A DNA stretch of 39,259 nt, from positions 1 to 39,259 of IMG/VR virus record IMGVR_UViG_3300032893_000154, one strand, 5' to 3'. This DNA is from a virus. The position numbers and the translations under genes are program-made. Under the pieces are notes generated by a model. That model was not told the origin of the DNA. It worked only from the letters and a program-made list of their open reading frames with translations, and did no database searches. This document shows, one piece after another, positions 11,010-37,177 of this stretch. Positions within the stretch are counted from its first letter, which is position 1. Every line of letters begins with the position of its first letter.

Positions 11010-11468
11010 ATGGCTAAAGTGAAGAAGAAATCGATACCTCCTCCAGCGCCCAAAGGCAATAAGTATGCTGCTGGTTGCGAGACTAGTGGTAGACCTAGAG
11101 AATGGACCGAAGGTTTCATCGAACAAAAGAGAAAGGCACTCGCAAAGTGGATTGAAAATCCAAAGAGCTACTTCTTTACTAGCTACTTGAATCAAGAAGA
11201 TTTACATCATGAACAAATAGAAAGGTTTTGTAATTACTCGCCAGAATTTCGTGCTACTTATAAGCGAGCTTTAGCAATTCAAGAACAAAGATTAGTAGAT
11301 TTAGCAGTATTTAAAAAGGGCGACGGTAATTTTATTAAGTTCGTCCTCGCTAATAAGGCAGGCTGGAAAGAGAGGCAAGAACTGTCTGGCGACGCCGCCA
11401 ACCCGTTATCTGTCATCCTTGATCGAATAGCAGACAGCGCCAAAGATCCTTTGGAATATGACGACTGA
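11010..11468 (+). CDS. Terminase small subunit
   Basis: This 152-residue protein starts after AAAGGAG. The N-terminus is a K-rich leader with PKGNKYA and TSGRP, typical of phage small terminases. A helical DNA-binding region follows (TEGFIEQKRKALAKWIE; YSPEFRATYKRALAIQEQR) and the end carries A-G-W-K-E-R-QELSGDAANPL, a common small-terminase ending. It would recognise the packaging site and recruit TerL, encoded one gene downstream with a methyltransferase between. It overlaps that gene by 11 bp. Confidence 0.82.
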   Translation: MAKVKKKSIPPPAPKGNKYAAGCETSGRPREWTEGFIEQKRKALAKWIENPKSYFFTSYLNQEDLHHEQIERFCNYSPEFRATYKRALAIQEQRLVDLAVFKKGDGNFIKFVLANKAGWKERQELSGDAANPLSVILDRIADSAKDPLEYDD

Positions 11469-13239
11469 AATCATACAAGGCGATTGCCTCGAAGAAATGC
11501 GCAAGATGGCGGATAACTCGATTTCGGCCGTTGTCACCGATCCGCCTTATGGTCTTCATTTTATGGGAAAGGATTGGGATAAATTTAAAGCATGGAATCA
11601 ACCCAATCCAAAAGGACATTGTATAAAAGCGGGTGCAAAGGCTGCCGGTGAGTATGATCCCAAACGCGACGACGAATTCCAAGCATTTATACGCGAAGTT
11701 GCAATCGAAGCTTTACGCATCGTTAAACCCGGTGGCCATCTTCTCATGTTTGGATCGCCCCGTCGCCATCATAGGCAAATGAGCGGTCTAGAAGATGCGG
11801 GATGGGAGATACGCGACTGCATTTTTTGGTGTTTTGGGTCGGGGTTCCCAAAATCTCACAATTTCGGTTGTAAATGTACCGGAGATGCTGTACCATATAA
11901 CCATGTTCAAAGGGAATCCGAAAGTAAATCTAATTTGTCCGGTTTGCAAGCGGGAATTCAAGATGCCGCATTGTTGGTTCAAAAGGAAAAAGAATCACCA
12001 TTGCAGCTATCAATGTCGGGACATAATGCGCCGATCACGCCCAGAATGGATGGCACATATGAGGCGAATTGCTTCGAACAGCAAGGGCAAGAAATATCCA
12101 TCACGGGGAATGAAACTCGAAAAGAATCCAGCTTGGAAGGGGGGCGTAACTTACAAGAGAAACAAGGGGAATTACATCGGTCCGAAGTATGTGAGATGCC
12201 CGATAGAATTCTTGGAAATGGCCAGGAAAGACGGTTATGTGATGGAGCATCGATTAGTGATGGCGAAACACTTAGGTCGAATTCTTCAAAGAATAGAAGT
12301 AGTTCATCACAAAGATCACAATACTCGGAACAATCAAATAGAGAATCTGGAACTATTTCCGAACAATCGGATTCACAAGATTGTGGAATGGGAACGTGTC
12401 AAAAATGCGGTGGATTAATTGCATTTAAAGGCTACGGCACCGCTCTAAAGCCCGCATACGAACCAATCATCATGGCCATGAAGCCCCTCGACGGCACCTT
12501 CGCCCAGAACGCCCAGAAATGGGGACAGGCGGGGATTAATATTGATGGGTGTAGGATACCTGGATCAAAACCAGATACCATTAGAGGCGCAGGGGGCCAA
12601 AATGGAAGATATTGCCCGATCAATGCTCAGGGCATAATAAAAGATGATGGAAAAGGCCGCTGGCCTGCCAATGTAATCTTTGACGAGGAAGCGGGGGCGA
12701 TGCTGGATGAGCAGAGTGGGCCTTGTAAAACAGGCGATTTGAATGGGCAGCCGAGAGTGGAGAATAAAATATATGGGAAATGTGGATCGACGCTAGGAAA
12801 TGAAAGATATTATAAATCAGACGCAGCTACTGGCGCCTCCCGTTTCTTCTACTGCGCCAAAGCATCATCGCGAGAAAGGAATGAAGGGCTTGAAGAATTG
12901 CCATTAAAGGAAAAAAAGACGCTTAACGATTATGTGCATAACAGCGAAGGGAGAACGGCGTCTAAGAGTGGTGCGCCAATGGCCAATAATCACCCAACCG
13001 TCAAGCCCCTAAAGCTTATGGAATATCTCATCCGTCTCGTTATGCCCCCAAAAGATGGCATCCTGCTCGACCCATTTGCTGGCTCTGGCACGACGATTTT
13101 AGCCGCTAAACGCCTCGGCTTTAACGCGATTGGCATAGAGAAACAGGCAGAATATTGCGAGCTTGCGCGGGCACGCTTAGCTTCTTATTCCGATAAGCCT
13201 AAAACGCCCGATCTAATCGACATGGCAATTTCTCAATGA
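11458..13239 (+). CDS. Beta-class DNA methyltransferase with ~180-residue insert
   Basis: This 593-residue frame has the beta-class order: motif IV (VVTDPPYGL, ~residues 26-33) near the N-terminus, then FGSPRRHHR and FGSGFPKS, GYGTALKPAYEP (~326), NHPTVKPLKLM, and motif I (LDPFAGSGTT) at the C-terminus. It therefore probably methylates adenine N6 or cytosine N4 of phage DNA and may block host restriction. Between FGSGFPKSHNFG and GYGTALKP lie about 180 residues of low-similarity, Ser/Gln/Glu-rich sequence (~138-320) that is the shadow of an HNH endonuclease gene in the +1 frame, yet has no stop. Cys pairs CKC (138-140) and CQKC (314-317) flank it. Whether the insert is tolerated, or the enzyme is inactive, cannot be told. 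It overlaps TerL by ATGA. Confidence 0.85.
   Translation: MTTEIIQGDCLEEMRKMADNSISAVVTDPPYGLHFMGKDWDKFKAWNQPNPKGHCIKAGAKAAGEYDPKRDDEFQAFIREVAIEALRIVKPGGHLLMFGSPRRHHRQMSGLEDAGWEIRDCIFWCFGSGFPKSHNFGCKCTGDAVPYNHVQRESESKSNLSGLQAGIQDAALLVQKEKESPLQLSMSGHNAPITPRMDGTYEANCFEQQGQEISITGNETRKESSLEGGRNLQEKQGELHRSEVCEMPDRILGNGQERRLCDGASISDGETLRSNSSKNRSSSSQRSQYSEQSNRESGTISEQSDSQDCGMGTCQKCGGLIAFKGYGTALKPAYEPIIMAMKPLDGTFAQNAQKWGQAGINIDGCRIPGSKPDTIRGAGGQNGRYCPINAQGIIKDDGKGRWPANVIFDEEAGAMLDEQSGPCKTGDLNGQPRVENKIYGKCGSTLGNERYYKSDAATGASRFFYCAKASSRERNEGLEELPLKEKKTLNDYVHNSEGRTASKSGAPMANNHPTVKPLKLMEYLIRLVMPPKDGILLDPFAGSGTTILAAKRLGFNAIGIEKQAEYCELARARLASYSDKPKTPDLIDMAISQ
11885..12418 (+). CDS. HNH homing-type endonuclease nested in the methyltransferase
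   Basis: This frame, +1 to the methyltransferase, encodes up to 177 residues from ATG 11885 (171 from ATG 11903). It has an N-terminal four-Cys finger (CPVCKREF ... HHCSYQC), a G-x5-NPAWKGG motif, and a full HNH core (GYVMEHRLVMAKHLGR, then VVHHKDHNTRNNQIENLELF). These are hallmarks of free-standing phage HNH homing endonucleases. The frame fills nearly all of the ~550-bp insert in the methyltransferase, leaving no room for a group I intron core. Its stop (12418) falls at the second Cys pair of the host protein. GGAG lies only one base before ATG 11885, so its start is uncertain. Confidence 0.78.
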   Translation: MLYHITMFKGNPKVNLICPVCKREFKMPHCWFKRKKNHHCSYQCRDIMRRSRPEWMAHMRRIASNSKGKKYPSRGMKLEKNPAWKGGVTYKRNKGNYIGPKYVRCPIEFLEMARKDGYVMEHRLVMAKHLGRILQRIEVVHHKDHNTRNNQIENLELFPNNRIHKIVEWERVKNAVD

Positions 13240-14735
13240 ATGTTAAGGTCGAAAAAGCTCTAAGCGACCCGCGTTGGCGTCTCAATAACCTTTACACGAT
13301 CATCGACAAAGAAGGGAAGCAGCGCCTTTTCAAGTTCAATTGGGCGCAAGCCGAGCTCTATGAAAATCTTTGGTATCGCAATATCATTCTGAAGGCGCGT
13401 CAGCTAGGCATCTCGACTTTTGTCTGCCTTTTCTTCTTGGACATCTGTCTTTTCAAACCTAATGTCGCAGCTGGCATCATCGCCCACACGCGCGAAGATG
13501 CGGAACATATGTTCAAGCGCATTAAGTTCGCGTATGATCACCTCCCAGAGGCTTTGAAGGCACTTCGCACGGCTACTGTCGATAGCGCAAGAGAGCTCGT
13601 TTTCAATAATCATTCTAGCCTCCGTGTAGGAACGTCTATGCGAAGCAGTACGCTCCAATATCTCCACATAAGTGAGTTTGGGAAGATATGCGCTCATTTT
13701 CCCGATAAGGCTCGTGAGATCATTACGGGCTCTTTGAATACTTTGGGCGCAAAGCAATACGTCTTCATTGAATCTACCGCAGAAGGCAAGGAGGGATACT
13801 TCTATGACCTCTGCCACCAAGCGGAATCGTCGCAGCTCAGCAAGAAGGATCTCTCGACGCTCGATTACAAATTCCATTTCTTCCCTTGGTTCAAATGCCC
13901 AGATTATGCGATCGACGAGAATATCACAATCCCAGACGAAACGGAAGAATATTTCCATAAGTTAGCCAGCCAATCGATTAAGCTTACGCGCCCGCAAAAA
14001 GCGTGGTATTATAAGAATTTACTTATCCAGAAAGACGACATGAAGCGCGAATATCCTTCGACGCCTCAAGAATCGTTTGAATCTGCAATTGACGGGAGCT
14101 TTTATGCAAAATGGATTAGAGAAGCCAGGGCGGAAGGGCGACTTGGCGTTGTCCCTTGGGATAGAGAAAGCCGTGTATCAGTTGCATTTGATCCAGGGTA
14201 TCTCGATTCGTGTGCAGTCGTATTCTGGCAATGCATTGGACAAGAGATTCACATTATCGACTATTATGAAAACAGCGGAGAGGGGCTCTCACATTATATC
14301 GGCGTTATCAAAGGCAAGCCCTATATCTACGACCAGTATTTCGGCCCGCACGACATCGAATCTCACCAATTTTCTACGGGTCTCTCTACTAAGGATGTTG
14401 CGGCATCTTTGGGCCTTAATTTCGTCACCCTTCGCACCCTCAAATTACGTCTGGAAGACGGCATCGAAGCTGTCCGGGGCATCTTCCCGCGTCTTTGGAT
14501 TGATGAGAAAAAGTGTTCGCGCCTAATTAAGTGTATTGAAAATTATCGAAAAGAGTTTGACGTTAATCACGGAATTTACAAAAGTAAGCCTGTGCACGAC
14601 GAATACTCTCACGGCGCAGACGCGCTGAGGTATGCAGCGATTGCCATCAAGACTCATATAGATAGCGCAAAGAGCGGAATATCGGATGACGAGGCAGACA
14701 AACTCTACAACAAGTTCCATCCCATCTTCAAGTAA
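13236..14735 (+). CDS. terL: Terminase large subunit (ATPase-nuclease)
   Basis: This 499-residue protein, in ATGA overlap with the methyltransferase, is the packaging motor. The ATPase half has a Walker A-like KARQLGIST (~residues 52-60) and a Walker B-like YLHISEFGK (~143-151), then FIESTAEG as coupling motif. The nuclease half has VAFDPGYLDSCAVVFW (~312), IYDQYFGPHD (~364) and a final HDEYSHGADALRYAA (~466) with the acidic residues expected for RNase H-like nucleases. Length is normal. It works with the portal at 19683 and TerS at 11010. Confidence 0.93.
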   Translation: MNVKVEKALSDPRWRLNNLYTIIDKEGKQRLFKFNWAQAELYENLWYRNIILKARQLGISTFVCLFFLDICLFKPNVAAGIIAHTREDAEHMFKRIKFAYDHLPEALKALRTATVDSARELVFNNHSSLRVGTSMRSSTLQYLHISEFGKICAHFPDKAREIITGSLNTLGAKQYVFIESTAEGKEGYFYDLCHQAESSQLSKKDLSTLDYKFHFFPWFKCPDYAIDENITIPDETEEYFHKLASQSIKLTRPQKAWYYKNLLIQKDDMKREYPSTPQESFESAIDGSFYAKWIREARAEGRLGVVPWDRESRVSVAFDPGYLDSCAVVFWQCIGQEIHIIDYYENSGEGLSHYIGVIKGKPYIYDQYFGPHDIESHQFSTGLSTKDVAASLGLNFVTLRTLKLRLEDGIEAVRGIFPRLWIDEKKCSRLIKCIENYRKEFDVNHGIYKSKPVHDEYSHGADALRYAAIAIKTHIDSAKSGISDDEADKLYNKFHPIFK

Positions 14736-16885: not shown

Positions 16886-16958
16886 TGGCCCATAGCTCAG
16901 CGGTAAGAGCGTCGCTCTGATACGGCGAAGGTCGATGGTTCAAATCCCTCTGGGCCAA
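16886..16958 (+). tRNA. tRNA-Ile (GAU anticodon)
   Basis: A complete cloverleaf of 73 nt: a perfect 7-bp acceptor stem (TGGCCCA/TGGGCCA), D arm GCTC/GAGC, anticodon stem TCGCT/GGCGA with loop CTGATAC (anticodon GAT), variable loop AGGTC, T loop TTCAAAT. The T stem has one mismatch (T936-C948 in local numbering 16936/16948). No CCA is encoded. It may support phage AUC decoding; no integrase is present, so it is not evidence of an attachment site. Confidence 0.9.
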
Positions 16959-35095: not shown

Positions 35096-37177
35096 ATGAC
35101 ATTTAATCCAGATAATAATCTTTATGGCTTTCCAACACCTTTGACGAGAGTTTTCCCACCTCCCGTTTTATCGCAGAGAGCCCCTCTTACCACAGACTAC
35201 AAATATCCGATCGGTCAAGTATGGATCGATGAGTTGGGCGAAGATGCCTATATACTCGTCAATGTGACCGGCAATTCAGCAACTTGGAACGAAGCAGCAG
35301 CCGTATCTGGCCCGCTAAACACTTTGACTGGGGACAGTGGAGGAGCGGTTTCTCCTTCAGGCGGAGACATAGAACTGCTTGGCACAGCAGATCAAATTAC
35401 AACTACTGGATCTGGAGCTGGACACTCAATCACTTTTAGCGTTCCTTCCACATTCATTGCTCCTGGATCGATCGCATCGACCACGACCATTGAAGCGGGC
35501 ACAGATTTAACGGTAGATGGAAACAGCACGCTGACGGGCACTCTTGGTGTCACAGGCGCATCAACCCTTGCAGCCTTAACCCAAGTCGGGACAGCCCAAA
35601 TAAACGCCTCAGGGGCTGCTACAACAACAATCGGATCTCTTACATCCGGAGCTACCAATCTTAAGTCTGGCGGAACTTTAACAATTGACGTTGCAGCTAC
35701 ACATAATTTGACAATTGGCGGAACTCAAACGAGTGGAACTGTAAATATTGGCGGAACTGGCGCAGCAGTCGGTACTGTAACTCTTTTCGGAGGAACCGGT
35801 GCACAAGAAATTGACCTGGGCGCTTCGACGGGTGGCAAAACGGCTCACCTCTTTGATGGGGCTGGAGCGAATACTGTCACTCTGGGCTCGGCAACAAGCA
35901 CATCAGCTACCACAATTAACTCTGGCTCAGGAGTCTTGAATCTGACTTCAGCGAGCGGAAACATTGGCATCACGACTGTCAACGGAACCGTCACTGTATC
36001 ATCTGGAACTGGAGAAATTGACATTTCAGCTGATGCAGCAGCAACGACGGTCAAAATCGCCACGGGAGCAGGGGCCAAAACCCTTACACTCGGATCGACA
36101 AACTCTACATCCACAACGACAATCCAATCTGGAAGTGGTGGCTTTTCCTTTGCAACGACAGGCGCGATCACCATCAATTCTGGCACTGGAACGATTGGAA
36201 TTAGCACGGACGCATCGGCAACCACGGTCAACGTGGCGACTGGCGCAGCTGCGAAAACAGCGACGTTCGGTTCTACAAACTCAACATCAGCTACGACCAT
36301 CCAATCTGGATCTGGAGCTCTTAATGTCACCTCGACAAATGGCGCTCTCACTATCGACTCTGGAACGGGCAATTTAGGCATTTCTACAGATGCAGCAGCC
36401 ACTACATTGAGCATTGGTACGGGAGGCGCTGCTAAAGCCGTCACAGTAGGTTCGACTAACAGTACTTCAGCAACTACCGTTCAAGGTGGTAGCGGTGGAG
36501 TCACGATCACCGGAACGAACGGTATCATCACTGCTAACTCTGGTACTGGAACGGTCAGCATTTCTACGGACGCAGCAGCGACAACGATCAACATCGGTAC
36601 TGGTGCTGGAGCAAAAGCCCTGACTCTCGGTTCGACCAACAGTACTTCTGCAACCACTTTGCAATCTGGTTCTGGAGCCCTGACTCTTGCGACTACTGGA
36701 ACGATTGGCATCAACTCGGCGACGGGAACGATTTCGATGTCTACAGACGCATCAGCCACGACAATTAATATCGGTACTGGAGCTGCGGCGAAAACGCTTA
36801 CTTTGGGATCTACTAATAGTACATCTACAACTGTAATTAATGCTGGATCTGGCGACGTAAAAGTCACTAACGCCAACCTTCGAATTGCAACTACTGGAAA
36901 AGGGCTGCAAATCAAAGCGGGGGCAGCTACTGACTTTGCGGGTACTGGAACGCTTTCTTCGGGAACGGTCACCATCAATAATACCAACATTGCGACCGGT
37001 GACTACATATTCCTTACAAGAATTGCATCGAACGGATCGACCACTTTTGGGGTTCTTTCTTACACAATCAGCAACGGTGCAAGTTTCACTGTAACCAGCT
37101 TGATTCTTGGTACGCCTGGAAGTACGCAAACCAACGATAATTCCACATTTGCCTACTTCATTGTAAGACCTCTCTAA
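35096..37177 (+). CDS. Long repetitive tail fibre protein
   Basis: This 693-residue protein starts after AAGGAG. The N-terminal ~70 residues carry W-I-D-x5-AYILVN and are likely the virion attachment end, shared with the fibre at 800. A GPLNTLTGDSGGAVSPSGG link is next. Residues ~180-590 are Thr/Ser/Gly-rich, including five 59-60-residue repeats (36023-36850) with TDA(A/S)ATT and GSTNSTS(A/T)TT signatures, a beta-helix or beta-solenoid type shaft. The end differs (GDYIFLTRIASNGSTTFGVL) and may be the tip. It starts the fibre operon. Confidence 0.85.
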   Translation: MTFNPDNNLYGFPTPLTRVFPPPVLSQRAPLTTDYKYPIGQVWIDELGEDAYILVNVTGNSATWNEAAAVSGPLNTLTGDSGGAVSPSGGDIELLGTADQITTTGSGAGHSITFSVPSTFIAPGSIASTTTIEAGTDLTVDGNSTLTGTLGVTGASTLAALTQVGTAQINASGAATTTIGSLTSGATNLKSGGTLTIDVAATHNLTIGGTQTSGTVNIGGTGAAVGTVTLFGGTGAQEIDLGASTGGKTAHLFDGAGANTVTLGSATSTSATTINSGSGVLNLTSASGNIGITTVNGTVTVSSGTGEIDISADAAATTVKIATGAGAKTLTLGSTNSTSTTTIQSGSGGFSFATTGAITINSGTGTIGISTDASATTVNVATGAAAKTATFGSTNSTSATTIQSGSGALNVTSTNGALTIDSGTGNLGISTDAAATTLSIGTGGAAKAVTVGSTNSTSATTVQGGSGGVTITGTNGIITANSGTGTVSISTDAAATTINIGTGAGAKALTLGSTNSTSATTLQSGSGALTLATTGTIGINSATGTISMSTDASATTINIGTGAAAKTLTLGSTNSTSTTVINAGSGDVKVTNANLRIATTGKGLQIKAGAATDFAGTGTLSSGTVTINNTNIATGDYIFLTRIASNGSTTFGVLSYTISNGASFTVTSLILGTPGSTQTNDNSTFAYFIVRPL
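36023..36850 (+). repeat. Five 177-180-bp coding repeats in the fibre
   Basis: Units begin at 36023, 36200, 36380, 36560 and 36737, each starting with codons for (I/M)S(T/A)DA(A/S)ATT and 59-60 codons long. Copies vary in sequence but keep frame. Recombination between units could lengthen or shorten the fibre shaft. Confidence 0.85.

Follow-up and report, generated by a model that had tools for sequence, protein, structure and literature searches.

A putative HNH homing endonuclease gene overprinted in the +1 frame of an uninterrupted viral DNA methyltransferase gene

The window, the whole 39,259-base stretch of an IMG/VR virus record analysed here, encodes a P22-like portal gene and a DNA methyltransferase (MTase) gene whose reading frame continues uninterrupted for 593 codons, straight across an insert of about 185 codons. 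Overprinted in the +1 frame of the insert is a second open reading frame (ORF) with the hallmarks of an HNH endonuclease. The features of the locus are listed below, all on the plus strand.

11458 to 13239, plus strand: DNA MTase ORF, 593 aa, N6/N4 MTase family (PF01555, E=7e-32; PHROG 67)
11458 to 11868, plus strand: MTase N-terminal part (DPPYGLHFMGKDWD ... GFPKSHNFG), from alignment with insert-free relatives
About 11869 to 12423, plus strand: insert as read in the host (MTase) frame, about 185 codons, residues ~138-322, with limits uncertain by a few codons
11869 to 11877, plus strand: C-x-C in the host frame where the insert begins, may be one half of a zinc clasp
11903 to 12418, plus strand: HNH endonuclease overprinted in the +1 frame of the MTase, 171 aa when counted from the preferred ATG
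12397 to 12408, plus strand: C-x-x-C in the host frame near the 3' limit of the insert, may be the second half of a zinc clasp
12424 to 13239, plus strand: MTase C-terminal part (FKGYGTALKPAYEP ... HPTVKP ... LDPFAGSGTT)

The MTase gene has terminase-like genes on both sides (11010-14735), one small-terminase-like with a weak GP3_package match and the other large-terminase-like, and the MTase stop overlaps the large-terminase-like start in an ATGA at 13236-13239. The closest insert-free MTases (e.g. L085, L110 and L111) read GFPKSHN(H/K/N)FG..GYGTALKP, with about 12 residues at the insert position. In the window, the insert sits between KSHNFG and KGYGTALKP, its 3' end reading CGGLIAF followed by KGYG. 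As host-frame sequence it is hydrophilic, rich in S, G, E and Q and predicted to be disordered, and no Pfam or PHROG match was found within it. The protein in the +1 frame matches HNH_3 (PF13392, E=9e-10) and contains a finger (CPVC...CSYQC), NPAWKGG and VVHHKDHNTRNN. A first-pass annotation made from the DNA letters had described a 593-codon MTase frame without a stop, some 180 codons of non-family sequence before GYGTALKP and a full HNH protein with these motifs in the +1 frame of that stretch, all of which we recovered.

The HNH ORF is already open from about 11792-11795, that is, 111 nt upstream of ATG 11903. We place the likely start at this ATG, 11 residues ahead of the first zinc Cys, because the ATGs of the family cluster there: among 30 relatives with a bare insert of the window type, 19 ATGs lie 9-12 residues before that Cys, 11 of them at exactly 11. 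Shine-Dalgarno (SD)-like sites precede some of the clustered ATGs in this class. No clear SD site lies ahead of ATG 11903 in the window, which counts against the overprinting model developed below. Structure prediction of the HNH protein gave a zinc finger plus nuclease with pLDDT >90 over 99 residues. In the predicted MTase structure, host-frame residues 145-311 have pLDDT <50 and are flanked by confident segments of the MTase core. The insert site corresponds to a loop of ~10-80 residues among insert-free MTases, and a loop already variable in length would explain tolerance of the insert. As a suggestion only, the host-frame CxC/CxxC pair at the insert ends may form a zinc clasp; modest support comes from motif counts, which gave p 1e-4 with a narrower counting window and 21/1/4/5, p 0.004, with a wider one, both values being inflated by related sequences.

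With only the HNH protein as query, viral contigs yielded 112 relatives, 80 of which were kept, and further relatives came from genomes (8) and from named phages and plasmids (a few). They belong mostly to uncultured viruses, with the addition of metagenome-assembled genomes of several phyla and one Cupriavidus chromosome (L106, chromosome 2 of Cupriavidus necator UYPR2.512). The same HNH lies in the +1 phase within a continuous MTase frame at 76 of 83 unique loci, the window included, where loci were collected by HNH similarity, openness of the host frame was the criterion for "nested" and shared ancestry means that locus counts are not independent events. A second scan with an HNH profile provided a held-out set of 23 further unique loci, of which 21 are nested with zero host-frame stops. 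The first-pass annotation had mentioned similar low-complexity linkers in other methyltransferases; this was right, and those linkers are overprinted HNH genes too. When the host-frame linker itself was the query, the viral-contig search yielded no matches, as expected if linker sequence is not conserved.

Two architectures were found among the 76 nested loci, with 35 carrying bare inserts like that of the window and 41 an intein as the surrounding host frame, a split that includes five loci first classed as bare by pattern and reassigned to the intein class after sequence inspection. Intein-class genes are laid out as W.YG, then CLSEDTEIL...TDQIVSRNHR...(overprinted HNH)...GAFVARRNGKVFVTGN, then SGFPKS. 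Their host frame contains an N-terminal splicing domain with Cys1 and the block-B His, and a C-terminal GN followed by Ser; splicing of these 41 relatives is predicted from the motifs. A profile of the intein N-terminal region matches solved inteins (AceL NrdHF, 1.5e-7; Spl DnaX, 1e-3), and the intein site lies a few codons upstream of the bare insert site. Inteins with an out-of-frame homing endonuclease occur in L004, L010, L019, L039, L062, L069, L103, L104, L107 and about 32 more. One relative of the window, L075, has 81% DNA identity over 12217-12557, with flanks matching at 67-76%. Compared with the window, an in-frame deletion of 330 nt has cost L075 the HNH start and zinc finger without closing its MTase frame, making it an endonuclease-dead remnant in a still readable host frame.

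Seven of the 83 first-scan loci and two of the 23 held-out loci are not nested in the +1 phase. Among them, L023, L038 and L096 have an MTase interrupted at the HNH: in L023 the HNH is antisense within a broken MTase, and in L038 (2113-3661) and L096 (1103-2701) the same HNH type is free-standing between two MTase half-ORFs. With the HNH outside the host frame, none of the three obeys the codon rule set out below. These seven loci, with an MTase broken or split in at least three, count against the overprinting model. Breakage is nonetheless the exception among homologues, and not the routine finding that the first-pass annotation had said would speak against its reading.

In the +1 phase, the only route to a host-frame stop is an HNH codon ending in T followed by one starting with AA, AG or GA. 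Third-position T (T3) occurs at 0 of 45 such stop-risk junctions in the window versus 53 of 109 elsewhere; given a T3 frequency of 0.49 outside stop contexts, the probability of zero T at 45 risky junctions is ~1e-13. T3 was likewise absent from stop contexts in the 76 nested loci (0/2616 versus 2150/6414 elsewhere) and in the held-out nested set (0/732 versus 587/1984). At the same junctions of non-nested relatives T is used freely (13/29, 17/42 and 32/52, and 42/91 in the held-out pair). Shuffling of the window's HNH codons among synonyms produced an expectation of 13.3 host-frame stops, and synonymous shuffling of the 76 loci an expectation of ~565, against none observed in either case. Together, the shuffling and the T3 counts rule out chance openness of both frames, a far stronger result than the "one in several thousand" originally estimated. 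Because the loci were found via the HNH protein and not the host frame, the absence of stops is not simply a selection effect, though "nested" by definition denotes an open host frame.

Synonymous choice alone can keep the host frame stop-free in this phase for 76 of 76 HNH proteins, and in the other forward phase for only 29 of the 76; for the in-register antisense frame, stop-free encoding is likewise always possible. Thus, among forward phases, only +1 keeps stop avoidance free of amino-acid cost. The +1 phase moreover yields a hydrophilic host peptide (ILMFV 17% versus 24% in the MTase core), and the two properties provide a simple reason why this phase works so well. Common descent explains the uniform phase of the HNH family as well.

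Base variability along the locus indicates which protein is under selection. In the MTase flanks the most variable base is MTase codon position 3, and both MTase halves retain the third-position bias of a selected protein. Within the overlap, variability peaks at HNH position 3, which is position 1 of the MTase codon, and HNH position 2 usually ranks with the most conserved. Host-frame amino acid identity was compared with a null in which the HNH protein is kept and host stops are forbidden, and exceeded it by 0.01-0.02 at 40-60% HNH identity; at HNH identities of 75% or more it becomes larger, an effect that common ancestry would produce by itself. This switch of position, along with near-null host-frame identity, marks the HNH as the selected protein and the host-frame product as scarcely more than a linker free of stops. 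Within the overlap, amino-acid selection acts on the HNH frame, with little selection on the MTase frame detectable beyond stop avoidance. A conserved domain in the host frame was rejected, identity being close to the null and the insert having no Pfam or PHROG match, and the host-frame insert is best regarded as a passive and probably disordered linker.

HNH and MTase have different histories. The window MTase groups with insert-free L088 (98) and the window HNH with L002 (99), in trees built from short or gappy alignments, that of the MTase with FastTree. On the MTase tree the presence or absence of the insert requires 27 changes, at least 10 of them forced by well-supported branches, compared with 46 for shuffled labels; on the HNH tree the bare and intein architectures require only 5. 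HNH and MTase distances are nearly uncorrelated (Spearman 0.06). Conflict between the two trees is as expected for a homing element and lends indirect support to the view that the window element is a homing endonuclease.

From these data, we consider it very probable that the window insert is an overprinted homing-endonuclease element and that translation of the MTase mRNA proceeds in two frames. Reading of the MTase frame through the insert would produce a full-length, presumably active MTase in which a loop already length-variable across the MTase family accommodates a hydrophilic, mostly disordered linker of ~185 residues. From a second start, ATG 11903 in the +1 frame, ribosomes would make the 171-aa zinc-finger HNH endonuclease. 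This endonuclease would presumably cleave MTase genes that lack the insert in co-infecting phages, and repair would then copy the element in (homing). Survival without splicing would be possible because selection keeps T out of the third position of HNH codons that precede AA, AG or GA. The first-pass annotation had likewise proposed a homing-type HNH that lives in the MTase gene by keeping the host frame readable, and codon-level selection, 76 plus 21 loci and the tree conflict now sustain that proposal.

Removal of the insert by a group I intron or cryptic intein would instead give a mature MTase without the linker. Such removal is a real solution in this family, as the same HNH lies inside an intein a few codons upstream in 41 of the 76 nested loci, but we regard it as very unlikely for the window. 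An Rfam gathering scan of the window found no intron RNA match, only a tRNA; neither N- nor C-terminal intein splicing blocks are present in the host frame of the window insert; and an intron would need no open host frame, yet host stops are strictly avoided. A group I intron, for which stop avoidance would be pointless, and an ordinary intein were accordingly rejected for the window. The original dismissal of both holds there; the family does have an intein connection, about half of the relatives lying in intein domains. Ribosome bypassing of the T4 gene 60 kind was discounted by reasoning only, as it would not need an open host frame.

The open host frame might also be maintained mainly for translational polarity, an early MTase stop starving the large-terminase-like gene of ribosomes and MTase function with the linker being perhaps secondary. 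The packing of the MTase between terminase-like genes, with its stop overlapping the next start, fits this reading, which we nevertheless judge very unlikely: intein-borne relatives follow the same codon rule at another site, and both MTase halves bear the third-position bias of a selected protein. Polarity could add to selection for an open frame, the terminase arrangement being known from the window only. Alternatively, programmed frameshifting might make the HNH as a fusion to the MTase N-terminus, without its own start codon, and the 111 nt of open HNH frame that overlap MTase codons upstream of ATG 11903 would allow it. That upstream part is not conserved and is predicted to be disordered, and the clustered ATGs of the bare class, some with SD-like sites, argue for separate initiation, making a fusion most unlikely.

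Overprinting of the MTase by the HNH, as favoured here, has a published precedent in the ShiLan domain of mycobacteriophage methylases, an out-of-frame HNH in an open host frame (PMC11855218; Arsenault, Gosselin, Gogarten 2025). No intron or intein was detected with the ShiLan, or hidden, HNH of actinobacteriophage methylases, and its distribution is disjunct (PMC11855218; Gosselin et al. 2023, PMC9957025). The principle of the hidden HNH is thus already published, and the phenomenon is not new in kind. The window element works like the ShiLan domain, being an out-of-frame HNH in an insert of a phage DNA MTase with an open host frame and a history in conflict with MTase phylogeny, but is a separate element, a variant distinct by site, phase and range. 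Its HNH is in phase MT+1 versus MT+2 for the Mantra HNH (Mantra copy checked here), its insert lies before GYGTALKP and not after GTALKP as in Mantra, and its relatives range more widely than the published set from Mycobacterium phages. Across part of the HNH the two proteins are 30% identical (E 2e-7), and they are probably distant homologues. The intein-borne form, the antisense forms described below and the codon footprint were not found in the literature searched; a preprint cited by the ShiLan paper, on actinophage inteins with "non-canonical architecture" (10.1101/2025.01.02.630785), may already describe the intein form.

Other homing systems resemble the window element in part. I-HmuI, the closest solved HNH homing enzyme, shares the HNH nuclease class with DNA-binding modules and is the best HNH fold match, albeit a weak one (Foldseek prob 0.63, E 0.9) that counts against the overprinting model, and the HNH profile matched nothing among PDB sequences. 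I-HmuI resides in a group I intron, whereas no intron RNA was matched in the window and its host frame stays open. Canonical inteins carry their endonuclease domain in frame; here it is in +1, within an intein domain in 41 nested relatives and without splicing blocks in the window. In T4-like phages, host genes can be split by a free-standing homing endonuclease, e.g. mobE in nrdA. L038 and L096, with the same HNH type between MTase half-ORFs, recall this arrangement, unlike the single uninterrupted MTase frame of the window. Bare insertions, inteins and split genes are thereby linked as alternative solutions of one endonuclease family.

Some MTases of the set carry further inserts, belonging to other HNH types, that likewise leave the host frame open. 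These HNHs are overprinted in +1 in L076 and L019, in +2 in L027, and antisense in L009 (3949-4596, minus strand), L080 (2276-2794, minus strand) and L271 (2501-3019). Host stops in the antisense overlaps number 0 versus 5.2 expected in L009 and 0 versus 6.2 in L080. Similar-looking +2 inserts, one in L047 and a second one in L019, have no significant HNH family match. L008, L016 and L073 also contain a second out-of-frame ORF, but there the MTase frame is interrupted by it. Overprinting is likely to be a general lifestyle of homing endonucleases in this MTase family, involving distinct HNH types, at least three sites and +1, +2 and antisense phases, with inserts either bare (a disordered linker, often with CxC/CxxC ends) or intein-borne (host product spliced out) and codons selected for a stop-free host frame. 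For the HNH family of the window +1 predominates, the sole forward phase without amino-acid cost.

The codon statistics show how a selfish gene can persist within a coding gene, neither spliced out nor disrupting it. As the footprint (no T3 before AA, AG or GA) is clean and countable, the reality of such overlaps is testable from sequence alone. "Low-complexity" MTase regions in databases can, by the same token, be overprinted genes missed by annotation.

Several minor observations accompany these results. A single MTase frame of at least 1191 codons in L019 (2247-5822) holds three out-of-frame inserts: an intein-borne HNH and a further HNH, both in +1, together with a zinc-finger/HNH-like ORF in +2. 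Elsewhere in the window, a tRNA-Ile (GAT) gene lies at 16886-16958, and 35096-37177 encodes a 693-aa protein of imperfect repeats (STSATTIQSGSG...) that has no PHROG match and is possibly a tail or adhesin-like protein.
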